Under the pieces are notes generated by a model that made no database searches, was not told where the DNA came from, and worked only from the letters and a program-made list of their open reading frames with translations. The position numbers and the translations under genes were made by a program. Shown in pieces: positions 8,915 through 61,191 of a stretch of DNA of 64,000 nt. This stretch comes from Cryphonectria parasitica EP155 (taxonomy: Eukaryota > Ascomycota > Sordariomycetes > Diaporthales > Cryphonectriaceae), in NCBI RefSeq assembly GCF_011745365.1, contig NW_024468910.1:1392068-1456067 (forward strand), given 5' to 3'. Numbering within the stretch: the first letter of the stretch is position 1; each line of letters starts with the position of its first letter.

Positions 8915-9323
8915 TGTAATGAGCACTGCAGCAATCCGAAGATTCCTAAGTACACGAAGGGGTTTATGCTAATAAGAGCGATGTCGAAGTGTTAAGTTCT
9001 TGAATACGGAACTGTACAAGTCTTAATAAGCGATGCAAGTATTCACTGCTTTTGAAGCTACTCAGTGTATAAGACTGAATACTTAGATTGACAACTGAAG
9101 AGCTATATACCGAATCTATCTAATGATAATGAACGTTTGCTTATATATCCAGCTCTTCAGTGTGGCTCGTTGGGATTGCTGGCGAGCCCAGCAATCCTCC
9201 CTCCTTTACAACTCTAATCCTGAGTTATATAATCAATGTTTCGTTAGAGCGTTGGATTCTTGATATCTGGTTCTTGTTACTTGTAACCTATTTTGTGATC
9301 TGCATGTTGGATGAATCATAACA
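8915..9323 (-). repeat. G1-b 3' LTR (409 bp, U3 cassette type III)
   Basis: Standard G1 borders (TGTAATGAGCAC...CATAACA). The leader hairpin is the CTCAGT/ACTGAATAC variant shared with G1-e. A plus-directed TATATAA lies near 9224. Confidence 0.9.
9173..9197. promoter_or_regulatory. Type III U3 inverted repeat in G1-b
   Basis: GGATTGCT-N9-AGCAATCC is a perfect 8+8 inverted repeat in a 25-bp span. Relative to GGATCGCT/AGCGATCC in G1-f, both arms changed symmetrically. Proposed operator for the antisense-encoded protein (inference). Confidence 0.5.
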
Positions 9324-9336
9324 TCATCTCCCTTCT
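9324..9336 (-). other. G1-b polypurine tract
   Basis: The minus strand reads AGAAGGGAGATGA immediately before the 3' LTR. The equivalents abut the 3' LTR in G1-c, G1-d, G1-e and G1-f. Confidence 0.8.
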
Positions 9337-9414
9337 ATCAGTTGTTGTTCTTAACAGTCTTCTGTAAGTATTCTAGCAAGTTTTCGTATTTATAATCCTG
9401 CCTTCCTAATCGAG

Positions 9415-10041
9415 ATGTTAAACAGGATTAACAAAGTTGCAAAACTGAAATCTTCAAATCCTCATTTCAACAAAAAGAGATAGAAAGACTTCCTTCTTCA
9501 ATCCATTCTCTTAAACAGTTTTAATATGCATTCCTATTCTTATTGCAATAATCAAAGCCTGTAATCGTATATCGTTTCTTCTTATGATTCGTTCCGTTGC
9601 TCGGAATGCATTTCCCAGAATCGTGCTAAGTGCAACGTTCTGGAACCGATGAATGCTGCTAAACTCTTTTTTACCTCTACTCAACATTGAAAGCTGAAGA
9701 ATGAGATAGAAGAGTTGGAGTTAAAATTGCTTCGATTGCATTAATAAAAGAAGATGTGGTATGAAAGGATGTTTCGAGCTATTCGTTGAAGCCTTACGAA
9801 TCTCGAAGAGCTTGAGAAAGAGGAAGCTGAGAAGGCTGAGGCTGAGAGGGTGCGTATTGCTGCTGAAGTGCAGGCTGTAGTAGCTGAGAAGTCTGCTGTT
9901 GCAGCTGAGGATTCTTCTTTTGAGAGTTTTGATTGGAATTCTGTGAACTTGGAGAATTCCGTGATTGACTGGTTGAGTTTCCTGGAGAATGAGATCTCCG
10001 AAGCTCCTGGATCTCGGTTCGGGGCGGAGCAATCATCCTAA
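9415..10041 (+). pseudogene. Antisense Zn-cluster/coiled-coil gene, allele alpha (G1-b)
   Basis: A 209-codon frame runs opposite to pol from ATG at 9415 (MLNRINK) to TAA at 10041, interrupted only by a handful of RIP-type stops. The N-terminal third holds a Cys cluster, partly ruined here by Cys-to-Tyr changes, ending RCSEC...KCNV. A Glu/Lys-rich coiled coil follows (NEIEELELKLL), then the motif NLEELEKEEAE and a conserved acidic tail ending FLENEISEAPGSRFGAEQSS. It starts about 90 bp inside the LTR, so LTR-driven antisense transcription is likely. The spacing resembles Zn2Cys6 regulators; function is unproven. Confidence 0.75.
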
Positions 10042-12330
10042 GCGCTAGCTTTCCTTTTCCAATCTTCAGCTATCTTTTCTTAAGCGTTTTTAACATTCTT
10101 TTGTGATTTCCACGAGTTTTCGCTTGCTGAGTAACTTTTCCACTTGATAAGGTATTTCCTTATACTATCTGTGCTTCTATACTTGAGGATTTTTTCTATC
10201 TTATATTCTGGCTCATTGTTCTCTACTTCTGCTGTATTATCCGTAAGTATTTCCTGTGCTGCTAGTTCCAACAGTGAAATATGGAAAACCGGATATATCC
10301 TTATCTCATAAGATAATGCTAATTCGTAGTTGATTAAGAAGATCTGTTGCAAGATCTTGAATAGTTCCAATTTCTTATAATCGAGTTTGTTGCTAGATCT
10401 GATTATTTTAATGTTTTTTCGAAGTAGATAGATCTTATCTCCCTTCTATAGAATTGGTTCTCTAATCCTTTTGGAGTTTGTATATTGCATTATTCGTTTC
10501 TGAACGAATTATAGTTCTAACTGAAATTCTTCCTAAGCCTTCTTAATTTTCTTAATTCTTTTGTCTGCAGCTTCTGCATCTGCTTCTAGCAGTATCTCGT
10601 AGTAAGCTATTGGATTGTATCTGTAGAGTACAAAGAATAGTGATTTCTTTGTTATACTTATATCTGCGCTATTATAAGCAAACTATATAAGAAGCAACAG
10701 ATCAACTTAGTTATTCTGTTTCTAATTAATATAGTATTGAAGATACTATTCGATAATCTGATTTATTCTTTCTATCTATTCATCTATTTGCAGATAAAAT
10801 GCTATAGATATTCTATAGTATATTCCGAGCTATTTTATAAGTAAAGTTCAAAACTTCGAGTTAAACTTTCTATTCTTATTGAAAATCACTTCTTCTAATA
10901 TGCTATGATTAGCAATAATCATTCTGAGAAATGTATATGCAAGTTCTTCTGCTATACTGCTTTCCTTGTAGGGAAGAAAATAAGCATACTTGCTCAGTTT
11001 GCAAACCATTACTAGAATGCTATTATATTGCATTCTAATTAAGAATTCTCATAAGAGAGATAGCTTAATAATGAAGTTTAGACTAATGGATTGCTAAATA
11101 GTTGTAAATACTAGTAAGAGATATAGTAGTTTGTAAGGCTTGTATCTTTCTGCTTTATTCTTCTTGCAGCTATTGCATTGTTATAGGATATTTCTAATTC
11201 TTTTCCTAAAGCTTGGTAGATTTCAGTATTTTTTGATATATTCGTAGGTTGCTCTGACTCTCTGATATCTGTATGCTAATGCACTATATATCTTCTTAAT
11301 ATAGTTATCTTGTTTATTTGGAGTTATTAATTCTGAATTCTTTTCTGAGAATCCGATTCTGAAGATAGCATTCAGCTTTCTATATGCATTAACAAGATTT
11401 CCTGACTCATCTTGAGTAAAGATGTTCTATATATCCAAGGAATTTGTATCTTAATAATCTAACTATTTGCTAAGAGCATCTGCTTATCCATTTTCCAAGC
11501 CTTTGCAGTATACAATCTTGAAATCAAACTATAAGAGGAATTCTGCTCATCTAACTTATTGCTTGTTCAAGACTTTGATCATCATGAATATAGTTAGATT
11601 CTTGTAATCCGAGTGAACTATGATCGGATACTGTGCACTGATGAAATAGTATTGCTATTCTTCAAAGGCTTTCACTATTGCTATAAGCTTCTGATCAGGG
11701 ATTCTGTAGTTGATTTCTGAGCTGTTCAGTTTCTTCGAAAAGTTGCTTACAATCCTTAGATGCTCTTGATCATCTCGCTAATCAAGTTGTTCTCCAAGTG
11801 CATATCCCGATGCATCGGTTTCAACTTCAAAAGATTTATAGGAGTCTGCTTCATACAGAATCAGCTCTGAGATGATATGCTTGATGATTTCATTAAAGGC
11901 TTCTTGTGCCTTGAGGATTTATTTGAAAGGTTGATTCTTTTTGGTAAGATTTGTAAGAGGGTATGCGATCCAGCTGTAGTTCTTAATGAACTGCTTATAG
12001 AAGTTGATATATCCGAGGAAAAACCTAATATCCCTGATGTTTCTGAGAATTGGCTAATTTCTGATAGCTTCTACTTTATCTTTCTGTAGCTTGATGCATT
12101 CTAGCTCGATTATAAATCTGAGGTAGTTGATTTTTTGTATGTAAAAGTAACTCTTTGCAGGTTTTACAAGAAGTTTTGCATCTTGGAGCGTTTACAATAC
12201 TATCTTCATATGTTTCTTATATTTTTCCAGTATTCGAGAGAAAATGAGGATGTTATTGAGATATGCAATGACGAACTGATCCAGATGCTTGCATAGAATG
12301 TAATTGATCATTTCCTGAAACGAAGCTAGG
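10038..12330 (-). pseudogene. pol: G1-b pol (RT part, RNase H, integrase, chromodomain)
   Basis: The chromodomain frame (10370-10080) reads EYKIEKILKYRS...YLIKWKSYSASENSW, a good match to chromodomains that tether integrase to H3K9-methylated chromatin. Integrase core is at about 11100-10600; the open piece 11033-10848 carries NSILVMVCKLSKYAYF. The first catalytic Asp near 11075 is Asn (SLNFIIKL). RNase H lies at about 11880-11470 and partial RT at 11900-12330 with a YLNN box. The pol stop (complement of 10038-10040) overlaps the antisense stop. Confidence 0.88.
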
Positions 12331-36013: not shown

Positions 36014-36036
36014 CAGCTCTTTAGTATGAATATGTT

Positions 36037-42800: not shown

Positions 42801-43870
42801 TGAGATATTCTCTGAGTACTTTTAGTTATACTTCATCTAGTCTGTAGATAGGGAAGAATTTGAGCTGTTTCTCTTTTTGTAGTGGGATCTTGTAGTTGTA
42901 TGAGCTGTATTCTAGCAACTCTGTATTCAATTCTTTCTGGAATAATTTCTTGAATTTGTAATATTCTTGTAGTATGTTTGCAAGTATTAGTTCTGATTTA
43001 TGTGCTGTTTCTGCTATCTGGAGGAACAGTAGGTACTATTGAGCATACTTCTTCTCGTTTGTTGTTTTTGGTGACGTTTTTGAAAGCTTTGAGCGTTCGC
43101 TCCGGGCTGAACCGAGCGCTCGAGGGCCTGGTTTCGAGGTTCTTCTTGTGTGAACTCACAATCCACTTTCTGAAGCTTTTCCTTATCGCTCCGGAGCGAA
43201 CCAACTTGCTGAGAGCCTCGCTTCCGTTATTTTGCTAACCTGCTAGCGCCCTAGCACTGTTTGGATTCGCCTGTTGCTAGATCCTTCTCCTTGAACTGCC
43301 AGTTCTGCTGACTTAAAGGTATGTGTGAAGTTGTCCGAAGCTTCTTTTCCCGAGTGTTCTTTGATAACTAGCTTCGATCCTGCGCTGTTGATTGCAACTA
43401 TCTCCCTGAATATAGCTTGCTTCCATGAGATCTGGCCAGTAGTCCAATCAATTCGAGGATTATGCTCTTTGAGCTATGAAAATTCTATAATCAGCTCATG
43501 CTGTGCTGTATCCATGATATCAAAAGAAATCCTGATTATATATTCTTAGATCAAGATAGATAGATGATTAGTCTTCTTATTAATTACTCCTTGGTTATAT
43601 ATAACAGATTATTCTTTCATAATACTAAGGATATAGGAATGCTTCTTTCATTTCCATTGTAGTTATGCCTGATTGATAATATATAGAAATATAAAGTTTC
43701 CCTAAGCATTATTATTTAATAGTACGCTGTATCTGTATTCTTAAATATATATATTAAACTTAATATGAGCATATTCTGTTCTAGAAGCTTTATATAGGAA
43801 CTGTTTCAGTCTAATCGTCTGCAGTCTCTTTACAAGCGATCTTAGTCTTTTGGGATTATTAAGAACTATT
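39865..43870 (-). pseudogene. pol: G1-d pol
   Basis: Chromodomain at about 40060-39890; integrase at about 41280-40080. The first catalytic Asp survives here (SLDFIIKL near 40905), unlike the other visible copies. RNase H at about 41700-41290 (LILYEADLYKPFEIKTDASEY) continues across S310 at 42025-42080. RT spans about 42840-42080 with a YLDN box, protease about 43860-43670. The pol stop overlaps the antisense stop at 39865-39868. The less mutated GC patch ahead of RT is at 43080-43140. Confidence 0.88.
41710..42019. repeat. S310 repeat copy 2 (310 bp), clean insertion
   Basis: Reverse orientation to 12331-12640, differing by roughly a dozen transitions. Flanked by ATATG on both sides (41705-41709 and 42020-42024), interrupting G1-d RNase H. 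The start reads TGTTAGGG and the end CCCTGACA. No gene; frames inside are incidental. Confidence 0.88.
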
Positions 43871-44779
43871 TGTCCTTCTGAGCCTGCTTTGCTGCTTCTC
43901 GAGCAAGCTTCTTAGCTTGTTTCTATTTGTATTATTGTTATTCCTAGTCTTTCTTCTGTTAATGCTAGTTACGAACTTTATTATTAATATAAATCGTACA
44001 GAGCATTATCTTACACTGCTACTACTTTATTTTCTTATTTATGCATTGTATAGAACAGTTATCTAGTAGCTCGATATATGCATTGTGATATTATCTGTTG
44101 AGAATCTCTCTGAAGCGGAGCTTCTGTTCTTCAACAGCCTGAAGGATTTGTTCTGATTCTCTGCTGGAGAACTATTCGTATTGTACTTTTTCCGAGAAAT
44201 GCATTCTGCAGCTATAATAGATGCAGGAAATCCATGCTAGTTCGTAGTATAGATTATGAAGTAAGCTGATTCAAGAGTTCTTATCTTGTTATACTTTGAT
44301 ATCTTGCAAGGAAATGCAGGTAAAGAGCTCTTCTAGCTCTATCCTATAGATAAGATATTTAATTCATATTATTTCCTTGTTCTACCCAATGCTGAAGGAA
44401 ACTCTTTCTATAAGCTCTTTGAGTTTATTGTTTACGAGGAATTCTAGCGAACTGCTGAATCGTTTGTTCTAGCTTGATTCTTTTATTGCTTGAAAAGCTT
44501 TTTCAGTGTTATTTAAGTATTTGTACTAATAGCTAAGAGGGTATCATTCCTTATTCACATCCTTAGTTATAGTACTTGGCGTAAGCAACAAGGAATGGTG
44601 AAGAGTATTGTTGCTAAGCCCTTTCTCCAACGCTTGAATACTTTGTTCAGTAATGCTAGAGCAGTTCGAGTTATTGCTGCTCATGATTATGCTGAGCGTA
44701 TACTCTCGCTCTCCTATCGCTATCTGCCTATAGCGCTTAGATTTCTGAGGAAACTATTCTGAGCCTTCCTTGCTCGAAA

Positions 44780-45945
44780 AGTATGTTAAGCAGTTATTGT
44801 TATAGCAGAATGTTCAGCTGAGACTTCCGTAATTAATAGAATCTGATACTTGCTTCGAGAGAATATTTTTGCTTAATTGATTAGATTTCTATTATCGAGC
44901 AATATTCATCTAGTATTCTTTCTGAATCAGTTGCTATTTATTCTTTCGGAATTGATAGCAATTATATGCTATATATCCCTATTTATTGCAGTTATAGCAA
45001 ATAATGCTATTCCTCTTGCTATACTGCTTGTTAGCAGCATTAAGCTTCATAAGACTAGCATGCATAATGCTGCTCTGAGCTGTACTGCTCTATTAACTGC
45101 TATTCTTGTATTGGAATTTCTTGCTTGTATTAGCTGAAAATCTCCAAGTCTAGCTTTCTCCCTTTTTGAACTTCTTTATTCATTATTCATACAGATAATT
45201 ATTAATGCAGATTGCTTGATTAAAGAATATTGCAAAGTTCTCTAGCTAATTCTGCTTGGAAATCTCATTCTTAATATTATTCTTAAGTTCCTTATAATAG
45301 TATTCTATAAGATTTTTATCTTCTTATAGAAGTTTTGCTAAAAGCTGTTTAAATCTAATTATATAAATAGAAGCTAATTTGATCTGCTTAAGATTTATAA
45401 GCTACTAAGCTGTAATGCATTCTTTATTGAGATTGCTAAAGATTTTCTTAAGAGCTTTTTCGAAGCTTTCAAAGAAGTTGAACATATCCTTAGTATCCTG
45501 GATATGCGCATCGGGATTATTCTGATGCTCCAAGTAGTTGTATAGAGAAAGCTTATATTAGATAAGAATATTCTTTTCGAAACGAATCTTTGCAAGAATA
45601 ATCTTTTCAGATTCCATAGTAAACTGAGTTGCATAATGCAGAAAGTATGCTCTGCAGTAGATAAGGAATCTATATAGCATCTTCTGATTGCTATTATACA
45701 TAGCAAGCTTGTTCATCTTGTACGCTTTTCTAGCACTACTGGTGACTGTAGAAGTGAACTGTGCCTGCTGAGCTTGTTGAGCTAGCTGAGCCTGCTGGTT
45801 AGCAATGGTGGCGCTCTAGGCCTGCTGTTGGTTGCGCAGGTCCTGGATACGCTGAATGAGCTGATATATCTGATTAATCAGTTCTTCCTGAGTAGAGGCA
45901 CGCAAGGATGAAGGGATTCCTGGAGAAGCTATTGTATTCCGTATT
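44780..45945 (-). pseudogene. gag: G1-d gag
   Basis: Gln/Ala-rich leader at about 45880-45760, capsid core below it, knuckle CYNC...GYIAYNC at about 45005-44957. The 43870-44780 interval has no clear domain. Confidence 0.75.
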
Positions 45946-45981
45946 GCTCAAGGGGATAATACTGAACTGTTCTTGAACAAG

Positions 45982-45992
45982 AGTTGTTAAAA
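45982..45992 (-). other. G1-d primer-binding site
   Basis: Minus TTTTAACAACT, one transition from the G1 consensus. Confidence 0.5.
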
Positions 45993-46438
45993 TGTAATAA
46001 GCACTGCAGCAATCCGAAGATTCCTAAGTATACAAAGAGTTTATGCTAACAAGAGCGGTGCCAAGTATAGGCCTTGAATACGGAAATACAACTGTAGTAA
46101 CTGTGCAAGTATTCACTGCTTTTGGGGCTATCAGAGTAAGAAAGTAATCTGATATTTAGATTAACAACTGAAGAGCTATGTACTGAATCTGTCTAATGGT
46201 AATGAACGTGTTCTTATATATTCAGCTCTTCAGTATGGATATGTTAGATAGCAACATATTCAAGCTATCCTGCTAGCTCTGGATAGCACATATCCGAAGC
46301 TATCCTTTCTGATTAGTCGTGCTGATAACCCTAACCCTGGGTTATGTGATCACTGCTTTGTCAGAACGTTGGGTTCTTAACACCTGGTTCTTGTTGCGTG
46401 ACCTGTTTTGTAACCTGCATGTTGGATGGGTCATAACA
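45993..46438 (-). repeat. G1-d 5' LTR (446 bp)
   Basis: Pairs with 38713-39158. Intact GGATAGC-N11-GCTATCC at 46281-46305; telomere-like motif at 46326-46338. Confidence 0.92.
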
Positions 46439-48837
46439 ATATAGTTGCTGTATCCTAGCTTATAGGAGAAGGCCTGGTAGTGCAAGCTTGTTATAGCCAT
46501 CTTCGCATTCCATTCTTTCACATTTTGTACAATCTCTCTATAATTAAGATAAAGAGCTTACTTCCAGTCTGAACAGCTACTAGATAATTGGTAGAAATCA
46601 ATAGATTTCAGGATTTAAAAGCGAAATAGTTTGATTGTATAAAGCAGAGCTGCATTCGAATCATTATTTAGCAGCATAGTTGGAATATTCTCGAAATCTC
46701 AATCCTGATTAGCTTCAGCACTTCTGAGCTAATTATTCAGATAGTGCTTGCTTGCATAAGCTAGTAGGATATCGCCGGATTTGTACATAGCGATATAAAA
46801 TCCTTTTTCAGTCTTTATATCAAGCTAAGATAGAATATAAGCTGAAGTTGCTATATTAACTGAAAGAAGAACTTATAAGCGCTTCTATCTAGCTTTATAT
46901 CTAAGCAGATCCTGCTTATTAAGAATATCAGAAGAGCTAGATAGATAAGCTATTAATAAAATACAAAGATATCTTATCAAGAATACATTTTATTGATTAT
47001 ACTGAGCATAATGATAAAAAGCAGCTATAGCATGCTATAAATTAATATCTTAAGAAACTTCTGCATCTAAGAATCTAATCAGATCATAGATATTGAGAAA
47101 ATATCTGAAAGGATTAGTGCTAAAGATTGTAAGCAAGTATAACTTGCAAGGAAATAACTCTAGAAAGTACTTCTCAATGAGTTCTGCTGCTAGATGATTT
47201 TCTTCATCCCTTAAACTGAAATAAAGCGGATAACTCTTGATTACTTCAGTTGAATATAGCGCTCTGGGAAAAACAGTTCGAAAGCAGTAAGTTTTAATTA
47301 TTCAGTTTTCTCAGCTATGCTGAATAGATGGGAATAGAGAGTACTTGAATTTGGCTATTACTGCTAAGTTGAAAGAAAAGTAAAAAGAGAAGAACAGCTT
47401 TATTGGAAGATAAGCAATTGTAAGAAGGATTTGCAAAGATATAAAGTTAAGGAACTGAGAGAGTATTGACTGAAGAAGAAAGATAGAGAAGAATGTAGCT
47501 TCAGCTAAAGGATCTATTGAAAAAGATAATGTTATATAAGCAGAGCAGTTGATAATTTGCTCTGATGTTAGTATACAGATTTGGAGCAGCGTTGATAAGG
47601 AAGAAAAAGGATGTATATATGCTCGAGAAAGATGATTGTAAAAAGATTAAAGGAGAAGAAAGAATAGCTGGCTGCAAGTATGAATGAAATAGCTGATTTA
47701 TCTTATCTAGCAACTATTTAAGTAATTCACTGCTTTTCGTTTATTATAAAGCAAACAGCTTTATTCTTAGCTAAATAGAAGCTATTTAGTAACAAACTGA
47801 ATAAAAGATATAATAACTCAGTTGAATGTATTTATTATTCATTACTATCTTATCAATCTTCAGCAAACTGTTCAACAATCTCTCTCTCAGTTTATTTTGC
47901 TTTTTAATTTATTCTTTGCATAACAACTTCTTCTTCTATCAATCTTCCCTTGTTTAGCTCTGCAATATACTTAAAATGTTTCGAATTATTATTAATGCTA
48001 TTTTCTCTTTGCAGATAAATACTGCTTTTCAAGAGATTAATAAGGTCTGAATCTAGTTTTCTTCTTCGATTCCTTCTCTTTAGAGCAGCAACTATTATTA
48101 GCTCAAGAATATTCATATTAACTTTCTTAATATTACAGACTTTAATACTATCAAGAAAAACCTTAGCTTGATATATACTTCTTGAAATATTCAAAGCGAT
48201 ATTATGTTTTGAAACAACTTACTGCTAAGCTCTAGCTTTGCTGCTCATTTCGCAAGACTGAATAATAAGAATTCTATTAAGCTAAATCCTATTATAGTAT
48301 ATAAAGCTGGTTAGAAGCTCTTTAACAAGTATCTTATCTGCATCTTCTCCTGCTCTAAGCAAGTAAATTCCCTTCTTATTCAGTTCTATAATTAGCATAA
48401 TCTAGTTCCTTGCAATTGCTGCTCTCATTAATATGCTACTGCTTGCATACTTATATAGGAGCAGCAGATTAATATTAACTAGCTTTTTCTAGAATGCATT
48501 TCAATAAAGAGCTTCTTCAATGAGAAATGCAGCAACTGCATTTATTATATAGAATCTAGATATAATTATACTAAAAACTTCTCTTGTATCAAAGAGCGCA
48601 GTATATGAATAAGATTTCTATTCTAATGTTTTTAACTAGGTTTGAGTATATACTAATTATTATTCTTCTTGCAGTATTAATACTTGTTTTATCAACTCAG
48701 CTTTCAATGTATAATTGAGATAGATTCTCAAGTTAACTCTAATGCTAATATTAAGCATATTATTAAAGCTTAATATAAGCTTATACGGAATAAAGATATT
48801 ATATATAATTAGATTAAATGAATTCTTCTTATACTAA
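46439..48837 (+). pseudogene. G2-b antisense gene, segment 2
   Basis: Plus-strand equivalent of about 14570-16970 in G2-a. The Cys-rich stretch (about 48410-48550) keeps PCNCC, ATAC, LEC and KCSNC spaced as in G2-a. Interrupted by G1-e. The minus frames here (47713-47501, 48194-47904) look like shadows. Confidence 0.4.
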
Positions 48838-49299
48838 TGTAATGAGCACTGCAGCAATCCGAAGATTCCTAAGTATACGAAGGGGTTTATGCTAACAAGA
48901 GCGATGTTAAAGTGTCAAGTCCTTGAATACGGAACCGTACAAGTCTTAATAAGCGATGCAAGTGTTCACTGCCTTTGGAGCTACTCAGTGTATGAGACTG
49001 AATACTTAGATTGACAACTGAAGAGCTATGTATCATGATCTATCCAGTTGGTAATGAACGTGTTCTTTTATATTCAGCTCTTTATTGTATTGGTAGTGTT
49101 GGTTTTGTTGGATCATTTGGATTACTTGGGTGATCCAACTGATCCGGATTATCATGGATCAGCTACTGATCCATTCTGATTCTGTAATTCTAACTCTTGC
49201 TTATATAATTCTGTGTGGTTATCCGATGTTGGGTTATAATATCTGGTTCCTTGTTAGCGGGGCCTGTTTCGTAATCTGCATGTTGAATGGGTTATAATA
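48838..49299 (-). repeat. G1-e 3' LTR (462 bp, U3 type I)
   Basis: The inner end is mutated to TATAATA. Plus TATATAA near 49203 precedes the antisense gene. The polypurine tract is at 49300-49312 (minus AGAAGGAAGATGA). Confidence 0.9.
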
Positions 49300-49391
49300 T
49301 CATCTTCCTTCTATCAGTTATTGTTTCCAACGATCTTCTGTAAGTATCCTAGCAAGTCTTTCGTATGCATAATCTTGCCTTTCTAATTGAG

Positions 49392-50043
49392 ATGTTGAAT
49401 AGAATTAACAAATCTTGTACCTTCACTCATTCAGTGAAGACTCAAGAGTGCTATTATCTTGCTGAGCTTATTTCTGTTTTTAGCATTAAAATGCCTGCTT
49501 GTGCTCACTGTTGGAAAACGGGAGCTTTCTGCTGCTTTGCTGAAAATTCTTCTTGTTATGGGAAGTGTATTTCTCTGAGTCAAAGTTGTGATACTAGCTG
49601 TTTTTCGGCTTCTGCTGGTTAGTCTTTTATTCCTGAATGCTTTTCGTGGTTACTGACTTCCTTTTTCAGCGGAATGCTTGATTCGTGAAAAGCGCAAGGT
49701 TTTGAATGAGAAGGCTGAGGCAGAGTTAGCAAACGCTGCTGCCTTGCAAGCCTTACTGGCATTGCAAGCTTGCCTTGATCGCGTGCGGAAATAGCGAAGG
49801 TTGCTGGAGGAGCGGGCTGTGGAAATGATTCGTCGTGGTTTCAATTCCTTGGAGGGTTTTGCTGATGAGGAGGATTGCAGTCTTCGTGAAGAGGAAACTC
49901 GCTTGATATTCCAAGGACATCTTGAGGTTATTGACTGGAATTTCTTAGCCCTTGATCCTAGCGTGTCTGGTTGGCCTTCCCTTTTGGAGAGCGAGATTCC
50001 CGAAGCTTCTGAGTTTCGGTCCGGGGCGGAGCGATCATCCTAG
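49392..50043 (+). pseudogene. Antisense Zn-cluster/coiled-coil gene, allele gamma, with intron (G1-e)
   Basis: Exon 1 (49392-49617) starts MLNRINKSCTFTH and holds the Cys cluster CAHCWKTGAFCC...CYGKC...SCD. Removing 49618-49669 joins it in frame to exon 2, giving 199 residues with a single internal stop (TAG for CAG). Exon 2 has a Glu/Ala-rich coiled coil (NEKAEAELANAAALQALLA), VEMIRRGFNSLEGF and the shared tail LLESEIPEASEFRSGAERSS. Ends are homologous to alleles alpha and beta; the middle is not. Stop TAG at 50041-50043 shares CTAG with the pol stop. Nearly free of RIP. Confidence 0.78.
49618..49669 (+). other. Spliceosomal intron in antisense allele gamma
   Basis: 52 nt: GTTAGT donor, TTACTGAC branch-like site, CTTTTTCAG acceptor. 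Without removal the frame hits stops at once; removal restores one continuous frame with exactly 200 codons including the stop. Confidence 0.72.
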
Positions 50044-53000
50044 ATGCTGGCTTCCTTCCTTTTCCAATACTCAGCTACCTTTTTCTGAGCATTTTTAATG
50101 TTTTTCTGTAGTTCCTATGAATTTTCGCTTGCTGGATAACTTTTCTACTTAATGAGGTATTTCTTTGTATTATCTGTGCCTCTGTGCTTGAGAATCTTCT
50201 CTACCTTATATTCTGATTCATTGTTTTCCACTTCTGCTATATTATCTATTGGTATTTTCTGTGCTGCTAGCTCCAGCAATAAGATGTAAAATACTGGATA
50301 TACTCTTATTCTATGCAGTAATGCTAACTTGTAGTTAATCGGGGAGATTTGTTGTAAGATTTTGAATGATTCCAACTTCTTATAATCAAGTTTGTTGCTG
50401 AATTTAGTTGTTTTAATGTTTTTCCGAAGTAAGTAGATCTTATCTCCCTTCTGCAGGATTGATTCTTCAATCCTTTTGGAGTTTGCATATTGTACTATTT
50501 GTTCCTGTACGAATTGTAATTCTGATTGGAGTTCTTTCTAAACTTTCTTAATCTTCTTAATTCTTTTATTTGCAGCTTCTGCATCTGCTTCTAGCAGTAC
50601 TTTGTAATAAGCTGTTGGATTATATCTATAGAGTATAAAGAATAGTAATTTCTTTGTTATGCTTGTATTTGCGCTATTATAAGCGAATTGTATAAGAAGC
50701 AATAAATCAATCTAGTTATTCTATTCCTGATTAATATAGTATTGAAGATACTATTTAATAATCTGATTCATTCTTTCTATCTATTTATCTATTTGTAAGT
50801 AGAATGCTATGAATATTCTATAGTATATTCCGAGTTGTTTTATAAGCAAAGTTTAAAACTTTGAATTAAACTTTCTATTTTTATTAGAAATTACTTCTTC
50901 TAGTATGCTGTAATTAGCGATAATCATTCTGAGAAATGCATATGCAAGTTCCTCTGCTATACTGCTTTTCTTATAGAGAAGAAAGTAAGTATACTTGCTT
51001 AGTTTGTAAATTATTACTAGAATGCTATTATATTGCACTTTAGTTAAGAGTTCTTGTAAGAAAGATAGCTTGATAATGAAATTTAGACTAATGGATTGCT
51101 AAACAGTTATAAGTACTAGTAAGGAATGCAATAGTTTATAAGGCTTGTATCTTTCTGCTTTGTTCTTTTTGCAGCTGTTGCATTGTTGTAGGATGTTCTT
51201 AATTCTTTTTTTAAGGCTTGGTGGATTTCAGTATTTTTTGATGCATTCGTAGATTATTCTAACTCCTTGGTGTTTATATGCTGGTGCGCTGTATATATTC
51301 TTGATGTAGTTGTTTTGTTTGTTTGGAGTTATTGATTCTGGATTCTTTTCCGAAGGTTCAATTCTGAAGGCTGCATTCAGTTCTCTGTGTATATTGATAA
51401 GGTTTCCTAATTTGTTTTGAGCAAAGATGTTCTGTATATTCAAGGAATCCGTATTTCGATGATCTGCTTTCCTACTAAGAGCGTCTGCTTGTTCGTTTTC
51501 TGAGCTTTTGCAGTATATAATCTTGAAGTTAAACTGTAAGAGGAATTCTGCTTATCTGACTTGTTGCTTGTTTAAGATCTTAGTTGTTATAAATATGATT
51601 AGATTCTTATAATCCGAGTGAATTATAATTGAATACTGTATGCTAATGAAGTAGTATTGTTATTCCTCGAAGGCTTTTACTATTGCTATGAGCTTCTGAT
51701 CAGGGATTCCATAGTTGATTTCTGAGCTATTCAACTTCTTTAAGAAGTTGCTTACAATCTTTAGACGTTCTTGATTATTCTGCTAACTAAGTTGTTCTCT
51801 GAGTGCATATTCCGATGCATTGGTTTCAACTTCGAAGGGTTTGTGAGGATCTGCTTTATACAGAATCAGCTCTAAAGTGATATGCTTGATAATCTTATTG
51901 AAAGCTTCTTGTGCCTTGGAGGTTCATTCGAAGGATTGTTCTTTCTTGGTAAGATTTGTAAGAGAGTATGCAATCTAGCTATAGTTCTTAATGAACTGCT
52001 TATAGAAGTTGATGTATCTGAGAAAGGATTTAATATCTCTGATGTTCTTAGGGATTAGCTAGTTTCTGATAGCTTCTATCTTATCTTTCTGTAGCTTGAT
52101 ATATTCTGGCTTAATTGTAAATCCGAGATAGTTGACTTTTTGTATGTGAAAGTAGCTTTTTGCGGGTTTCATAAGAAGTTTCGCATTCTGAAGCGTTTGT
52201 AGCACTATTTCCACATGTTTCTCGTGCTCTTCTAATATTCGAGAGTAAATAAGAATGTTATTGAGGTAGGCAATGATGAACTGATCCAAATGCTTGCATA
52301 GGATATAATTAATTATTTCCTGGAATAAAGCTAGAATGTTTATTAAGCTGAAGAGTATGATTAAATATTCGTAGTATTCATAGTATGTTCTGAAAGCAGT
52401 TTTCTATTCTTCTTCTTTCTTTACTCTGATTAGATTGTAAGCTTCTTTTAGATTTAAAGCTATAAATCATTATGCTTCTTATAGCTTATCTCGTAATTTC
52501 TTAATAAATAGCAACAGATATTAGTTCTTAATTGTAATATTATTGAATTGCTTGTAATCAATATATAGCTTAAGCTTGCTATTCTTCTTAAATATAAACA
52601 GAATAGAGTATTCTGCTAGTAATTGCAATGATTGTATATATTCTTTCTTGAGGTTCTCATTAAGATATTCCCTAAGTACTTCTAGCTATGCTTCATCTAG
52701 TCCGTAGATAAGGAAGAACTTGGGCTGTTTTCCTTCTTGTAGTAGGATCTCGTAATTGTACGGGCTATATTCTGGTAATTCTGTATCCAATTCTTCCTGG
52801 AATAGTTTTCTGAACTTGTAGTATTCGCGTAGTATGCTTGCAAGTGTTGGTTCTGATCTATATACTGTTTCTGCTACTTGAAGGAACAGTAGATACTGTT
52901 GAGTATGCTTCTTTTCTAATGGCGTTTTCGAGAGCTTTGAGCGTTTGCTCCGGGCCAGATCGAGCGCTTGAGAGCTTAGTTTCGAGGTTTTCGTATGAAC

Positions 53001-53700
53001 CTACAATTCACATTCTGAAGCTTTTCTTTGTTGCTCCGGAGCGAACCGACTTACTGGGAATCTCGCTTCCGTTATTTTGCTAATCTGTTAGCGCTCTGGT
53101 ACTGTTTGGGTTCGCCTGTTACTAAGTTCTTCTCTCTGAACTGCTAGTCTTGCTAACTTGGAAATATATGTGAAGTTGTCTGAAGCTTCTTTTCTCGAGT
53201 ATTCTTCAATAACTAGCTTCGATCCTGCGCTGTTAATTGCGATTATCTCTCTGAGTACAGCTTGTTCTTATGAGATCTGGCTAGTAGTTCAATTGATTCG
53301 AGGATTATGCTTCTTGAGCTATGAAAGTTCTATAATTAGCTTATGCTATGCTGTATTCGTAATATCAAAAGAAATCTTAGTTATATATTCTTGGATTAAG
53401 ATAGGTAAATGATTAGTCTTCTTATTGATTACTTCTTGATTGTATGCAATAGGTTGTTCTTCTACAGTGCTGAGGGTATAGGAGTGCTTCTTTCATTTCC
53501 ATTATAGTTGTGCCTGATTGATAATATATGGGAATATGAAGTTTCCTTAAGCGCCACTGTTCAATAGTGCGCTGTACTTGTATTCTTGAATGTATATATC
53601 GAATTTGATGTAAGTATAGTTTGCTTTAAAAGCTTTATATAGGGATCGTTCCGATCTAATCATCTGCAGTCCCTTTACAAGCAATTCTGTTCTTTTGGGA
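50040..53700 (-). pseudogene. pol: G1-e pol
   Basis: The C-terminus reads KNAQKKVAEYWKRKEASI then TAG at 50042-50040. Chromodomain 50260-50080 (VEKILKHRGTDNTKKYLIK), integrase about 51460-50270 (51038-50853), RNase H about 51960-51470, RT about 52700-51960 (52289-52059: IIAYLNNILIYSRILEEHEK), protease about 53700-53510. The less mutated GC patch is at 52930-52975. RT Asp residues and the first integrase Asp are lost. Confidence 0.9.
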
Positions 53701-54629
53701 TTGTTAAGAACTGCTTGTTCTTCTGAGCCTGCTTCGCTGCTTTTCGAGCAAGCTTCTTAGCTTACTTTTGCTTATATTATCATTATTCCTAGTTTTTCTT
53801 CTATTAATGCTAATTGCAAATCTTATTATTGATATAAATCGTATAGAGCATTATCTTGCACTGCTACCATTCTGTTCTCTTGTTTATACATTGCATGAAG
53901 CAGTTATCTGGTAATCCGATATATGCGTTATAATGCTGCCTGTTAAGAACTTTTCTGAAGCGGAGTTTCTGTTTCTTAATAGCCTGAAGGATTTGTTCTA
54001 GTTCTCTGATGGAGAACTATTCGTGTTGTACTTTCTTCGAGAAATGCATTCTGCAGCTATAATAGATATAGGAGATCCATGCTAGCTCGTGGTGTAAATT
54101 GTGAAGTAGGCTAATCCGAGAATCTTCATTTTCTTGTGCTTTGATGTTCTGCAAGGGGATGCAGGTGAAGAGCTCTTCCAGCTCTATTTCATAGATGAGA
54201 TATTCAATCTATGTTGCTTTCTTGTTCCATCTGATGCTCAAGGGGAATCTTTTTGTGAGCTTCTTGAGTTCATTGGAAGACTCTGATAGATTGCTAGATT
54301 GTTCGTTTTAGCCTGATTCTTCGGTTGCTTAAGAAGCGTTTTCGATGTTGTTTAGATATTCATACTAATAGCTAAAAGAATATTATCCCTTATTCATATC
54401 TCTGATTATGATGCTTAGCGTAAGTAATGAAGAATGTTGAAGAGTATTGCTGCTAAGCTCTTTCTTCAATGCTTGAATGCTATATTCAGTAACATCGGAG
54501 CAGTTCGAGTTGTTACTGCTTGTAGTTATGCTGAGCGTATATACTCGTTCTGCTGTTGCTATCTGCCTGCAGCGCCTAGATTTCTGAGAAAACTATTCTG
54601 AGCCTTTCTTACTCAAGAGATGTATTAAG

Positions 54630-55790
54630 TAGTTGTTATTATAGCAGAATGTTCAGCTGAAACTTCCGTGATTAACAGAGTTCGATACTTGCTTCAAAGG
54701 GATGTTTTTGCTTAATTGATTGAGTTTCTGTTGCTAAGCAATATTCATCTAGCATTCTTCTTAAACTAACTGCTATTTGTTCTTTTATAATTGATAGCAG
54801 TTGCATGCAATATATTTCTATTTGTTACAGTTGTAGCAAGTAATACTGTTTCTCTTGCTATACTGCCTGTTAGCAGCGTTGAGTTTCATGGGACCGGCGT
54901 GTATAGTGCTGCTCTGAGCTGTGCTGCTATATTAACTATTATTCTTGTTTTGGAGTTTCTTGCTTGTATTAGCTGAAAATCTTCAAGTCTGGCTTCTTCC
55001 CTTTTTAAACTTCTCTATTCATTATTTGTACAGATAGTTGTTAATGCAGATTGCTTGATTAGAGAATATTGCGAAGTTCTCTAGCTAATCCTGCTTAGAA
55101 ATTTCATTCTTAATATTATTCTTAAGTTTCTTGTAGTAATATTCTATAAGATTCTTATCTTTCTATGAAAGTTGCGCTGAAAGTTGCTTGAATCTGATTG
55201 TATAAGCAGAAGCTAACTTGGTTTGCTTGAGGTTTATGAGTTGCTGCGCTGTAGTGCATTTCTCGTTGGGATTATCAAAGGTTTTCTTAAGAGCTTTTTC
55301 GAAGCTTTCAAAAGAATCAAACATATTCTTAGTATCCTGAGTGCGCATGTTAGGATTGTTCTGATGCTCCAAGTGGTTGCGCAGAGAAGGTTTGTATTAA
55401 ATAAGAGTATTCTTTTCGAGACGAGTTTCTGCAAGAATAATCTTCTTGGATTTCATAGTAAACTGAGTTGTATAGTGCAAGAAGTATGCCTTATAGTGGG
55501 TGAGAAATCTATATAGCATCTTCTGATTGCTATTATATATAGCGAGCTTGTTCATTTTATATGCTTTTCCGGCATCACTAGTAGCTGCAGAGGTGAACTG
55601 CGCCTGCTGAGCCTGCTGAGCTAGCTGGGCCTGCTAGTTAGCGATGGTGGCGCTCTGAGCCTGCTGTTGTTCGCGCAGATTCTGAATATGCTGAGTAAGC
55701 TGATATATCTAGTTAATCAGTTCTTCCTAAGTGAGAGTGCATGAGAACGAAGAGATTTCTGGAGGAGCTATTGTATTCTGTATTGCTCAA
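54630..55790 (-). pseudogene. gag: G1-e gag
   Basis: The open piece 55372-55163 reads MEHQNNPNMRTQDTKNMFDS, then FESFEKALKKTFDNPNEKC and a TRF-like IRFKQLSAQLS end, the best-preserved capsid core in the window. Knuckle at 54846-54797: CYNC...YIACNC with His to Tyr. Gln-rich leader at about 55690-55590. The stretch 53700-54630 has no clear domain. Confidence 0.8.
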
Positions 55791-55820
55791 GAGGGTAATA
55801 CTGAACTGTTCTTGAACAAG

Positions 55821-55831
55821 AATTGTCAAAA
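55821..55831 (-). other. G1-e primer-binding site
   Basis: Minus TTTTGACAATT, one transition from the G1 consensus. Confidence 0.5.
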
Positions 55832-56293
55832 TATAATGAGCACTGCAGCAATTCGAAGATTCCTAAGTATACAAAAGAGTTTATGCTAATAAGAGCGATA
55901 TTAAAGTATCAAGTTCTTGAATACAGAACTGTACAAGTTTTAATAAGCGATGCAAGTATTCACTGCCTTTGGGGCTACTCAGTATATAAGACTGAATACT
56001 TAGATTGATAACTGAAGAGCTATATACCATGATCTATCCAGTTGGTAATGAACGTATCCTTTTATATTCAGCTCTTCATCGTGTTGGTAGTGTTGGTTTT
56101 GTTGGATCATTTGGATCACTTGGGTGATCCAACTGATCCGGATCACCATGGATCAGCCACTGATCCATCCTGATCCTGTAACCCTAACCCTTGCTTATGT
56201 AATCCTGTGTGGTTGTCCAACGTTGGGTCATGACACCTGGTTCCTTGTTGGCGGGGCCTGTTTCGTGACCTGCATATTGAATGAGTCATAACA
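55832..56293 (-). repeat. G1-e 5' LTR (462 bp)
   Basis: Pairs with 48838-49299; starts TATAATGAG (mutated TG). Telomere-like TAACCCTAACCCT at 56179-56191. Confidence 0.92.
56111..56166. promoter_or_regulatory. Type I U3 cassette of G1-e
   Basis: TTGGATCAC-N4-GTGATCCAA at 56111-56132 and GGATCAG-N3-CTGATCC at 56150-56166, with the palindrome GATCCGGATC between. Proposed operators for allele gamma. Confidence 0.5.
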
Positions 56294-56671
56294 ACTAAGG
56301 AAATAATACTTACAGGATATTATAAGTCTTATAATCAACTATAGTTGCAATGCTTAAGAAGATTACTGCTAACTTTATCTGCATAGATTAGCAAGAAGAG
56401 TACTGCTCCTTCTGCTTTCAAGAAGAGAATATCTGAATCTGGGTAGGCAGCTCTACAATCTGTATCTTGCAGCAAGAATAAAGGCAAGAGCAAGGCTGTA
56501 GTAGAATCTTGTATTGAGAAACGAGCTAAATCTGTTCAGTTTCAAGATTCTTTCTCTATTTTTAATAATGATTCTTCAGCGAATAATATAAATAATATGA
56601 ATCTAGATAGAATAAGAAGAAAGCTATTGAATAATATTTATGAATATTCCGATAATAAGGATAATGTATAA
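56294..56671 (+). pseudogene. G2-b antisense gene, last exons
   Basis: The intron at 56322-56386 (65 nt; donor AT instead of GT) precedes a final exon colinear with G2-a (ISKKSTAPSAFKKRISESG, one TAG), ending NKDNV then TAA at 56669-56671. The conserved frame and stop in both copies support a true coding exon. Confidence 0.5.
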
Positions 56672-57449: not shown

Positions 57450-60019
57450 TAAGCATGTTTATTTAGAATCTGAGCAATCAGATATGAATTCTTCTATTTA
57501 TAAGAGATCTTAGTATTGTATAAGTAGCTTATTTTCCGAATATAGTTATAAATAAGCATAAGATTTCTAATATTCAGTTGAGATTTTCGTATCAGATTCT
57601 GTATTTAACTTTTAGCTGTAATCTTTTGATAATATATCTGAATAGCTTTAATTGCTTTCTATATATTATTTTCCTTAGCTGCAATTATTCTTAATTGCAT
57701 TTCAAATGCTTTCTGAAGGGATTAGTCTTCGGTTTATGTAAGAACTCTCTATATTAGGATTTCAGTTTCAATTGGAATAAGCAGCTTTTAACCGAAAATC
57801 AAATAGAAGAAGCTATATCCATGCAACTAGCGGATTGTAGTTCTTTCAGCAAAGAGTGTAAGTTTCAAATACTGCTTTTATCTTCAGGATTAAGCATTAG
57901 CTAGCTTAGTAAGAGTACTTGCTAAGAAAAGATAATTAGCTTCTACTTGTTCTTAAGTATGGAAATTGTAACTGAAAATCTGAATAAGCAGGATCTCAAA
58001 AGCTCTGATAGTCTTAGCTATTTCAGCCTTATTTTCTGATTTTCTGTTAACAGTGATTTTGAGAGAGCATTTGAATATAAGAATAATTTCTTTCAAAATA
58101 AACTTTCTTATTTCTGCAGCTATAGCTTTCTTGAAAAATCTTGCAAGTATATAGCTAGTTAAATCACAGCAAGCCTCTGCAAGATATCTGTAATTGCTAT
58201 TCTTAGCTATATATTGAATATTGATGCTGATTCTTGTAAAGGATTAACTTAAAAGGATTGGGATTACTTCTTTCTTTCATATCTTTGGATTGAACTTTAC
58301 ATACTTCTTGCAATCCAAAATAGTATTAGCTATATTTGTTCAGAGATCTCTTTAATAATAGAGTTGCTTGATATAAGCTACTATAGAATCTCAGCTTTAA
58401 TATTCAAACTTAGCATAATATTCTCTAATAATTCAGCAATGAAGATCAGGATTATTTACTATTCATCAGCATAGGAGTTTCGTATCAGTACAGTGCTACA
58501 GAGCCTGATTAAGTACTTGATGCTTTAATGCTTTCATTATGAAGTTCTTGCAATTCCTCTTGAAGAGTTTTGATAGAATAATCCTATAGCATAAGAACTC
58601 TGCATACTGTTTCAACTATTCCGTTCACTGAAGAGTTGGATTTAGCAGTAATACTAGATCAGCTCTATCTAAGTTTATGCTATTAAGCTGAGCATTATAC
58701 TAGTTCTCAATATTATTATTTTTATTTTTCTTAAATAGCATTAAGTATAAAGATTGAGAAAAAGCATTAGCTATAGAATTCTTTGATTCGGGAATATATT
58801 TAATAATAAAGTTGAATATCTTGATTACTGCTACTTATCTATTCAGGAAAGCACTAGATATATTGTTTATTCCTTTATTGAATTGATTTATCAGAATGCG
58901 AGTATTAGTTTTCAGAATAAAATAGCAACTATAGAGATGCTGCTAAAGAAACTATAGAGCACAGAGAATAGCGCAATACTTCCTCTTAGTAGCATTATAT
59001 TTCTGTATTGCAACTATTCAGATTCCGCTAACGAAATATGCTAGCTTTTGTTTATTCTTTACTACTTACATCAGTACAGCATTTCAGCTTAACAGGCTTG
59101 CATCTATTATAAGAATAATCTTTCCAGCATTAGTGCTATAATTAATTGAAATAATAACTGAACAAGATATAAGTATTCAGATAAGTATAATAACAGCTTC
59201 TTTCTATTCCTTCTCCCATCTTTATATAGTATCTTTCTTGAGAAGATTGTAGAGTAGTTAAGCAATAATTGCAAAGTTTTAAATTCAAGCTGCATAATAG
59301 ATAATCAGTTTAATAAAGAAGCGAATATTCTTGATATTCTTATATTCTATTCAAGCTAAAAGCTTTTCTATTTTTCTATTCTAAAGTTATTATTTGCTGA
59401 AACTGATAATATAATCAACTATATTAACTTTTACTCAGTACTATTCTAATTTAAATGCTAAGATTATAGCTTTAGCTAGCTCTGTATTTATAAGAATCTT
59501 ATTAAGATTTCCGATATACTTAGCAATATATCTATGCATTCCGAGAAGGCTTGGAATCTCTTCATCTTTATAGATTGTTATAAAACTATAAACAGGAATG
59601 TTATTGAGAAAAAGCTGGTATATATAAAGAATAAGATTATACAGAAATCTAACTATTATTCTCATAAACTGAGCAACAGAGTTAATAGCACTCTGGAATA
59701 AAGTATACATTCTGAATAAGCTTAAGAGCATTGAAAAGATTATTATATCCCTGCTATTAGGATGCAGTTGCACTTGATTGTATTCAGAAAAGAAGTTGAG
59801 CAGTAAAAGAATCTTGTATATAGCGAACTTCTTCAAGAATTCATCTGAAGCAGGCAGCATGAAAGCATTCTTGAAGCTGTACTTATTATACTTTTGAGCA
59901 TTATTAATCAAGCATAAGCTATTATTCTTTTTGATAATAAGAAACTAGTTATTTCTATATAATATATAGCTTTTCTTAATAATCTCTCGCTTGATACATT
60001 GTTTCAGAAGCTTTATCAG
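57450..60019 (-). pseudogene. G2-b integrase, RNase H and RT (truncated)
   Basis: The open piece 59911-59441 is the best RT segment of the family: INNAQKYNKYSFKNAFMLP, NQVQLHPNSRD, NSVAQFMRIIVRFLYNLI and the box LFLNNIPVY, where FLDD is expected. The end region GMHRYIAKYIGNLNKIL is typical of this Gypsy RT type. RNase H lies at about 59300-58760 (LAYFVSGI, ATKRKYCAIL, SAFLNR, YIPESKNSIANAFS). Integrase spans about 58720-57450. G1-f cuts RT at 60020. Confidence 0.85.
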
Positions 60020-60473
60020 TGTAATGAGCACTGCAGCAATCCGAAGATTCCTAAGTACATGAAGGGGTTTATGCTAACAAGAGCGATGTCAAAGTGTCAA
60101 GTCCTTAAATACGGAACCGTACAAGTCCTGATAAGCGATGCAAGTGTTCACTGCCTTTGGAGCTATCAGAGTAGAGAGTAATCTGATACTTAGATTAACA
60201 ACTGAAGAGCTATGTACTGAATCTATCTAATGGTAATGAACGTTTGCTTATATATCCAGCTCTTCAGTATGGCTCGATGGGATCGCTGGCGAGCTTAGCG
60301 ATCCAAAGTGTGAAGCTCGTTGGGATCGCTAGCGAGCCCAGCGATCCTTTCTCCTTTATAACCCTAACTCTGAATTATATAATCAATATTTCATCAGAAC
60401 GTTGGATTCTTAATACCTAGTTCTTATTACTTGTAACTTATTTTGTAATCTGCATATTGAATAGATTATAACA
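60020..60473 (-). repeat. G1-f 3' LTR (454 bp, U3 type III, cassette doubled)
   Basis: Standard borders. Plus TATATAA near 60374. Polypurine tract at 60474-60486 (minus AGAAGAGAGATGA). Confidence 0.92.
60280..60347. promoter_or_regulatory. Type III U3 cassette, two 25-bp inverted repeats
   Basis: GGATCGCT-N9-AGCGATCC at 60280-60304 and again at 60323-60347, both perfect. G1-b has only one. Confidence 0.55.
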
Positions 60474-60564
60474 TCATCTCTCTTCTATTAGTCGTTATTC
60501 TTAACAATCTTCTATAAGTATTCTAGCAAGTTTCTATATTCATAATCTTGCTTTTCTAATCGAG

Positions 60565-61191
60565 ATGTTGAATAGAATTAATAAAGTTGTAAAACTGAAA
60601 TCTTCGAATCCTTATTTCGATAAGAAGAGATAGAAAGATTTCCTTCTTCAATCCATTCTCTCAAACGGTTTCAACATGCATCCCTGTTCTTATTGCAACA
60701 GCTGGAGCCTGCAATCGTGTATTGTTTCTCTTTATGATTTGTTCCGTTGCTCGGAGTACGTTTCCCAGAATCGCGCTAAGTGCAACGTTCTGAAGCTGAT
60801 GAATGCTGCTAAACTTCTTCTTATCTCTATTCAACATTGAAAGTTGGAGAATGAGATAGAAGAGTTGGAGTTAAAGTTGCTTTGATTGCGTTAACAAAAG
60901 AAGATATAGCATAAAAGGATGTCTCAAGCTATTTGTTGAAGCTTTACAAATCTCGAAGAGCTTGAGAAAGAGGAGGCTGAGGAAGCTGAAGCTGAGAGGG
61001 TGCGTATTGCTGCTGAAGTGCAGGCTGTAGTAGCTGAGGAATCTGCTGTTATAGCTAAGGATTCTTCTTTTGAGAGTTTTGATTGGAATTCTGTGGATTT
61101 GGGGAATTCCGTGGTTAACTGGTCGGGTTTTCTGGAGAATGAGATCTCCGAAGCTCCTGAATCTCGGTTCGGGATAGAGCAGTTATCTTAA
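60565..61191 (+). pseudogene. Antisense Zn-cluster/coiled-coil gene, allele alpha (G1-f)
   Basis: 209 codons, colinear with the G1-b gene. The Cys cluster is better kept: HPCSYCNSWSLQSC, nine residues, RCSEYVSQNRAKCNV, giving C-x2-C-x7-C-x9-C-x2-(Y)-x7-C with one Cys to Tyr. Coiled coil NEIEELELKLL, then NLEELEKEEAEEAEAERVRI and an uninterrupted C-terminal frame from 61000. TAA at 61189-61191 overlaps the pol stop (complement of 61188-61190). Confidence 0.75.

Follow-up and report, generated by a model that had tools for sequence, protein, structure and literature searches.

The locus analysed here raises the question of why the copies of one retrotransposon mix most of their sequence with one another while keeping a single antisense gene matched to a short palindromic cassette in the terminal repeat. 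The window, which is the whole 64,000-nucleotide stretch of Cryphonectria parasitica EP155 under study (C2:1392068-1456067; 43.8-Mb genome), is a nest of decayed repeats, and self-comparison reveals several copies of one ~7.4-kb Ty3/gypsy long terminal repeat (LTR) element, here called G1-a to G1-f. The pol of this element is on the minus strand, where stop-to-stop pieces match RVT_1 (E 9e-9) and a Tf2-1-like SH3 domain (E 3.5e-10); the chromodomain match in these pieces (E 0.011) falls below its cut-off. The left LTR of each copy is therefore the 3′ LTR, and the plus-strand gene beside it is antisense and located between pol and the 3′ LTR, which bears out the antisense orientation claimed in an earlier sequence-only reading of the window.

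An antisense gene in this position, encoding a homologous protein, is shared with the brtn-family chromodomain Ty3/gypsy elements. The brtn gene is the antisense gene of the Boty-like elements of Botrytis cinerea (Zhao et al. 2011 Virology, as cited in PMC8365987, PMC7264820 and PMC4227169), the name BRTN appears in PMC5987419, and the class is known both as brtn and as antisense open reading frames (aORFs) (PMC7264820, PMC8365987), for which no function is known (PMC7264820). The linked palindromes offer a directly testable function for these antisense genes, which have long been known without one. It is proposed here that each element probably carries a cognate regulator together with its own sites in the U3 region of the LTR, whichever sign the regulation has. 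No allele series matched to U3 palindromes in an LTR element was found in the available portions of the literature searched, although Zhao et al. 2011 may report LTR or allele variants; the accessible part of PMC4182546 holds nothing on this element.

Cassette types and the alleles of the antisense gene

Cassettes of the three types described in the sequence-only reading (alpha, beta and gamma) were all recovered in the window, and each pattern had a mean of 0 matches in 100 window shuffles. Chance is rejected as the source of the palindromes on this expectation, the single-copy longest-arm tests being no more than modest in beta, delta and theta. In alpha, beta, delta and epsilon, the outer half-sites span 25 bp from one end to the other. 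Purine/pyrimidine (R/Y) patterns revealed a tandem pair of 25-bp inverted repeats in 35 of 39 alpha-labelled LTRs and in 33 of 33 beta-labelled LTRs, G1-b having one repeat, and the forward matches to R/Y-degenerate 25-mers across the genome number 256 for alpha, 369 for beta and 240 for epsilon, against control counts of 2, 15 and 45, respectively. One LTR-end 31-mer has 678 genome matches with at most 3 mismatches. A TATAYR motif is located no more than 45 bp from the cassette, on the gag-pol side, in 94 of 97 LTRs. A telomere-like sequence, TAACCCTAACCC, often decayed, adjoins the cassette at 36117-36128 and 60358-60371, and likewise in the LTRs of most allele types read.

The cassettes were read in 33 stretches of 8 kb, 8 of 3 kb and 20 short loci, which gave 97 LTRs with a readable cassette. 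This sample is not a random draw: L009-L028 comprise the 20 top-ranking alpha matches from beyond the window, and L029-L041 the last 13 entries of the beta list. Unsupervised clustering of the 97 cassettes gave nine clusters (39, 33, 10, 5, 3, 3, 2, 1 and 1 members) in place of the three types claimed earlier, and the GGAT...ATCC frame that was thought common to all of them breaks down in epsilon (GACTATG...CATAGTC) and iota (AACTGCAA...TTGCAGTT). Forty-five of the LTRs are 3′ LTRs with the gene side present, and the cassette and gene clusters are concordant in 44 of these pairs (23 alpha, 17 beta, 2 gamma, 1 delta and 1 iota). The sole discordant pair, L001, has a solo beta LTR lodged between its gamma LTR and its gamma gene, and reflects a later nested solo-LTR insertion. 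Freely combined types were looked for in the 45 pairs and not found, and the matching of cassette to allele, as originally noted, holds. Additionally, the further copies of the gamma list have a gamma cassette with a gamma gene in 4 of 4 cases, the gamma sample comprising 6 copies in which both were read. All 26 LTR pairs spaced 6.9-7.35 kb share one cassette type, as reverse transcription requires.

Further cassettes were reached through the protein. The relatives of an open alpha ORF of 206 amino acids found elsewhere in the genome (L025) include two C. parasitica proteins, P0003 and P0005, that are unlike alpha or beta; their genome copies were located by protein similarity alone, and the upstream letters were then read. 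The P0005-like copies (the 8 top-ranking of 23 rows with an identity of at least 60%) have one previously unseen cassette, delta, upstream in 8 of 8; these loci (L042-L049) have a different left flank, stand outside the 97 LTRs, and were typed by eye. The eight P0003-like loci (rows 1-7 and 13 of 150) have an epsilon cassette (GACTATG-N11-CATAGTC, twice) in 5, a zeta cassette in 2 and no LTR in 1 (L053), a gene that is uninformative for pairing. Over the first 100 residues the zeta genes are alike to P0003 at 61 and 62 of 99 positions, while the two zeta copies are alike at 82 of 98 and the epsilon proteins P0003 and P0039 at 95 of 100. Identity to P0003 alone fails to separate epsilon from alpha genes, whose rows overlap; the epsilon assignment is based on P0003 itself (L050) and on the first ~40 coding bases shared, by eye, among L050-L052, L056 and L057.

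A letter-free check found one listed alpha, beta or epsilon cassette at 344-406 bp in 20 of 35 gene rows, and two types in none. By eye, five alpha and six beta rows are in the matching allele lists, and the nine epsilon-type rows are in none of the alpha, beta and gamma lists. The other 15 rows, 4 delta rows among them, have no alpha, beta or epsilon cassette; the listed beta matches reach C2:450260, and genes beyond this position could show no beta cassette. Three isolated alpha-pattern places on C1, which did not have the look of LTRs, were left out.

The two arms of the G1-b cassette had been noted as changed symmetrically. That change looks like ordinary decay. Among the 74 alpha 25-mers found, both CpGs are intact in 45, one arm is changed in 19, the G1-b pattern is present in 9, and an asymmetric double change is present in 1. 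The decay is C-to-T, mainly at TpCpG, with TG in 18 and CA in 0 of the left arms, and CA in 19 and TG in 2 of the right arms. Most of the changes are transitions at the TpCpG found in either arm, and in a palindrome such changes come out symmetric; an adaptive origin of the G1-b change is rejected on these counts.

Linkage along the element

Of 43 copies, 42 with aligned 3′ parts were used for a divergence map and 40 alpha/beta copies for a linkage map, with L001 left out of the latter. The alpha-beta transversion divergence is 0.45 and 0.26 in the cassette and 0.11-0.28 in most of the gene, and it is 0.002-0.023 in the ~200 bp between them. In U5/R (to 38911) and in pol, the alpha-beta divergence is about the mean of the within-type values. 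The linkage map agrees with this division. The squared correlation (r2) between cassette and gene has a median of 1, and r2 is above 0.9 at 34 of 36 cassette sites and 70 of 86 gene sites. The LTR sites located 34-221 bp left of the cassette (12 informative) have a median r2 of 0.01 with the allele, 9 of them with all four combinations, and the 108 sites that run from the final 80 bp of the gene on into pol have a median of 0.03, all below 0.2, with all four combinations at 98. This last class starts at 39790, and about ten of its 108 sites are in the last 80 bp of the gene. The nearby flanks are unlinked to the allele, so that linkage is not a matter of distance. The gene tail comes in two kinds, and both are found among alpha genes (L025 versus others) and among beta genes (L003, L008 and L031 versus others). 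On trees, the allele label changes once for the gene and 10 times each for U5/R and pol, compared with a mean of 13.2 for shuffled labels; the observed numbers were reached by 0, 14 and 13 of 300 shuffles, respectively.

The gamma copies reveal an exchange between the two partners. G1-e differs from five other gamma copies at 1 of 95 positions in the cassette and 1-2 of 227 at the gene start, counted as transversions, and at 10-13 of 74-75 in the ~80-bp middle. The G1-e middle is 3-7 of 77-79 from those of epsilon, theta and iota LTRs and 8 of 76 from that of alpha G1-f, and the middle of the other gamma LTR tested (L058) has 10-13 differences from G1-e, epsilon, theta, iota and alpha G1-f. 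Since the cassette and gene start are near-identical and the middle is divergent, the piece between the partners was replaced while the partners stayed. The pair thus seems to be kept intact in the face of recombination, which is what a regulator and its operator would lead one to expect, and, with the cassette as putative operator, the linked pair within recombining flanks has the arrangement of a heteroimmunity-type module. Fourfold-site transversions between gene alleles are 9/40, 11/57 and 12/42, above the all-site values of 0.003-0.10 in the flanks, which are not like for like; on these values the gene alleles look older than the shared backbone.

The antisense protein and its putative role

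The antisense protein has six cysteines spaced in a Zn2Cys6-like manner, and a coiled coil and an acidic tail are also present. A profile search, in which the best 7995 candidates were scored, found at least 153 relatives in Ascomycota and metagenomes; the 120 listed include proteins from Pyricularia, Botrytis ("Putative BRTN"), Monilinia, Sclerotinia, Fusarium and Aspergillus, and the homology to BRTN is given by P0052, which carries that name, at E 9e-40. Zn2Cys6 transcription factors feature the pattern CX2CX6CX5-12CX2CX6-8C. A slightly wider pattern is present in 108 of 121 relatives and in none of 2420 shuffles; in the most frequent spacing (37 of 108) the first loop has 7 residues, and the others mostly have 6. 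The six cysteines are invariant in 55 aligned sequences, which were hand-picked from the 121 with fragments mostly left out. Zn_clus is the commonest Pfam match of these sequences (17 of 55 at E≤1), and two relatives carry the UniProt name Zn(2)-C6. The AlphaFold2 model of the relative P0002, built from 13 sequences, has a predicted template modelling score (pTM) of 0.40; two short helices in the cysteine cluster have a per-residue confidence (pLDDT) of 69-79, and a long coiled-coil helix is mostly above 90. In a Foldseek search of this model against 350,542 PDB chains, the only six matches at E≤10 are all Zn2Cys6 DNA-binding domains, those of Leu3, Gal4, Ppr1 and Hap1. The last 60 residues of P0003 and P0005 contain 12 acidic, 2-3 basic and 5 aromatic residues, and an acidic-aromatic tail is common across alleles. 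Transversions by codon position are 25/11/27 between alpha and beta, and 36/23/45 and 24/10/33 in further allele comparisons, a distribution as in a protein gene under purifying selection. An open frame that is a mere shadow of pol is rejected, since the conserved cysteines, the codon-position pattern and the relatives in other fungi favour a gene. The gamma gene has a GT...AG intron-like stretch near 49620-49668, seen by eye, and none was seen by eye in alpha or beta. A second element family of the same architecture may be indicated by P0010 on C6 of this genome, a more distant brtn-like protein (42% to alpha over 55%).

These features suggest that the antisense gene encodes a small Zn2Cys6-type dimeric DNA-binding protein of the brtn family, with the U3 palindromes as its candidate sites. 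Because U3 is copied to both LTRs at each transposition, the 5′ LTR places a site next to the gag-pol TATA box and the 3′ LTR places one upstream of the antisense gene. The protein would bind its own cassette only and would set the output of its own LTRs. Activation is the most likely mode, a preference held with modest confidence, since the acidic, aromatic tail is kept in the alleles. In alpha, beta, delta and epsilon the 25-bp geometry stays the same and the half-sites change, which would be what one dimer scaffold of changing specificity needs. Recombination between the elements is free, but mismatched pairs would fail and be lost, so that the pair alone stays linked. New specificities could be favoured, as a guess, if a new pair escapes titration or misleading by the old sites and broken proteins that hundreds of dead copies carry. 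The earlier proposal that each lineage encodes its own DNA-binding regulator gains from the linkage map, the cassettes found through the protein, the exchanged gamma middle and the Zn2Cys6 likeness, weak as its scores are, and the regulator stays putative.

Several results weigh against such private pairs. The 25-bp geometry is not universal, as the zeta palindrome is 27 bp and the gamma repeats are 17, 18 and 27 bp, and the half-sites of alpha and gamma are similar while their genes are unlike. The longest-arm palindrome found in single copies was reached by 23, 13 and 8 of 300 shuffles for beta, delta and theta, respectively. The Pfam PF00172 gathering score is not reached, the best E among the 55 sequences being 0.021, with 10-14 bits where shown against a cut-off of 21. 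The Foldseek matches are weak singly (E 0.83-4.1), and PUT3 appears in a PDB profile search (E 0.13) but behind eight other, mostly coiled-coil, sequences. In the linkage data, the alpha/beta loci were chosen as good matches to queries that contained both the LTR and the gene, so that mosaics would be under-represented; r2 does not exceed 0.9 at 16 of 86 gene sites, several of which are close to the 3′ end of the gene; the alpha-beta middle lacks any polymorphism that could prove an exchange within the block, and gamma alone shows such an exchange; and U5/R and pol keep a faint trace of the allele, no more.

Plain descent, by which a cassette and a gene within about 1 kb are inherited as one block without a functional tie, would draw on the closeness of the partners and on the alpha-beta middle, where the only two informative sites are both fixed. 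It is nevertheless an improbable explanation, as the LTR sites to the left and the gene tail into pol are unlinked to the allele, the gamma middle was exchanged while both partners stayed, and the gene alleles look older than the backbone. A still poorer account, and a very improbable one, takes the palindromes as RNA hairpins or pairing signals in packaged RNA with the antisense gene hitch-hiking. Inverted repeats can fold as RNA, and U3 is at the 3′ end of the sense RNA; this account leaves unexplained that the gene segment for the coiled coil and cysteine cluster varies together with the palindrome, and the location of the cassette upstream of the TATA box, which makes it absent from the 5′ end of the RNA, counts against it.

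Two other possibilities are modes of the regulator-operator pair itself. In self-repression or exclusion, which has the opposite sign and would resemble phage heteroimmunity or plasmid incompatibility, the protein would shut the LTR of its own element and any newly arriving copy of that type. The sites are about 20 bp upstream of the gag-pol TATA box, and the hallmark of phage immunity regions is that regulator-operator modules are swapped among elements that otherwise recombine; the acidic, aromatic C-terminus kept across alleles resembles an activation region instead, and this mode is considered unlikely, if worth keeping in view. Rather less likely is an anti-silencing factor like VANC of the Arabidopsis VANDAL elements, which would bind its own motifs and remove silent marks. 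VANC proteins are encoded by transposable elements, are sequence-specific, and evolve together with repeated non-coding targets (PMC5735166 and PMC10398659). Here too the protein has variable and constant parts, the sites are repeated, and protein and cassette, as the putative target motif, diverge together. The element class differs, VANDAL being a DNA transposon and the present element an LTR element with reverse transcriptase, and a compact promoter-proximal site fits a transcription factor. VANC and VANDAL form related families whose effect is loss of DNA methylation, whereas the alleles here are on one recombining backbone.

Other known systems share parts of the proposed private regulator-operator pairs. 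The immunity regions of lambdoid phages have a regulator and operators that are swapped as a matched module in a mosaic genome; the phage regulator is a repressor, while here the module is in a eukaryotic LTR element and may have either sign. Gal4, Leu3, Ppr1 and Put3 have in common with the antisense protein a six-cysteine cluster, linker, coiled coil, acidic tail and, with the cassettes as putative targets, palindromic sites; in contrast to them, it has weak Pfam scores, and the CGG half-sites usual for Zn2Cys6 factors are not those of the cassettes. HBZ of human T-cell leukaemia virus type 1 (HTLV-1) is encoded by an antisense gene driven from the 3′ LTR, as the present gene would be, and is a basic leucine zipper (bZIP) transcription factor; we know of no allelic operator series for it. 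The antisense promoter in the 3′ LTR of HTLV is described in PMC7264820.

A wider claim can be put forward tentatively, with slightly less than even confidence, that LTR retrotransposons form "immunity groups", in which one recombining population within one genome carries up to nine or more specificities and the antisense genes of fungi, perhaps also of plants, are the regulators. Selection against mismatched pairs and, probably, release from titration by dead copies would keep such groups apart. If true, an LTR element keeps a multi-allelic self-versus-other control like phage immunity or plasmid incompatibility within one genome, and the private switches it suggests are reminiscent of those of rival bacterial viruses. 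The paired specificities would also be a natural series on one protein scaffold, useful for Zn2Cys6-type recognition rules.

Element copies and other features of the window

No ATG-started ORF of 150 amino acids was found in the whole 64-kb window, and the element copies there are broken. Their positions and those of the cassettes and genes are listed in the table.

Table. Positions of element copies, cassettes and antisense genes in the window (window numbering except where C2 is given)
Feature	Position	Strand	Basis or remark
G1-a (gamma), 5′ part	1..4531	-	self-comparison
G1-a 3′ LTR and antisense gene	left of window; C2:1389239-1390466		matches gamma query, 79%; by match alone
G1-b (alpha), truncated: 3′ LTR, antisense gene, part of pol	8912..12330	-	self-comparison
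G1-c (beta)	28815..36234	-	self-comparison, pol pieces; 3′ LTR 28815-29273, 5′ LTR 35776-36234
G1-d (beta)	38712..46442	-	self-comparison; 3′ LTR 38712-39162, 5′ LTR 45992-46442
G1-e (gamma)	48836..56294	-	self-comparison; 3′ LTR 48836-49297, 5′ LTR 55830-56294
G1-f (alpha), 3′ part	60018..64000	-	self-comparison; continues past window edge
Gamma-type inverted repeat, G1-a 5′ LTR	4475..4501
Alpha cassette, G1-b	9173..9197		single 25-bp palindrome left
Beta cassette, G1-c 5′ LTR	36037..36096		25-bp inverted repeats 36037-36061 (decayed) and 36072-36096
Beta cassette, G1-d 5′ LTR	46246..46305		second 25-mer 46281-46305
Gamma cassette, G1-e 3′ LTR	49110..49172		repeat at 49156-49172
Gamma cassette, G1-e 5′ LTR	56104..56176		nested GGATCA half-sites; repeats 56113-56130, 56150-56166
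Alpha cassette, G1-f	60280..60347		two 25-bp palindromes, 60280-60304 and 60323-60347
TATA-like box of gag-pol promoter	60248..60257	-	about 20 bp from alpha cassette
Middle between cassette and antisense gene	39041..39262		2 informative transversion sites, both fixed alpha vs beta
Antisense gene, allele alpha (G1-b)	9415..10041	+	broken; start placed by alignment to G1-f
Antisense gene, allele beta (G1-c)	29364..29981	+	broken; ends placed by alignment to G1-d
Antisense gene, allele beta (G1-d)	39251..39868	+	broken
Antisense gene, allele gamma (G1-e)	49392..50043	+	broken
Antisense brtn-like gene, allele alpha (G1-f)	60565..61191	+	broken frame

The window has an observed/expected CpG ratio of 0.56. 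An insert of ~311 bp is present at 12331-12641 and 41709-42019 in opposite orientations; its two copies are 94.5% alike and the two element copies that host them only ~80% alike, which makes the insert a younger mobile piece. Tandem arrays with units of 82, 73, 37 and 17 bp, which are GC-richer, are located at 6549-7531 and 7942-8392, and a similar array is also found upstream of the antisense gene in L053. Three ~215-bp repeats, about 99% alike, are at 6114-6333, 8430-8648 and 12987-13203; two of them flank the GC-richer arrays, and they are perhaps the LTRs of a young element.

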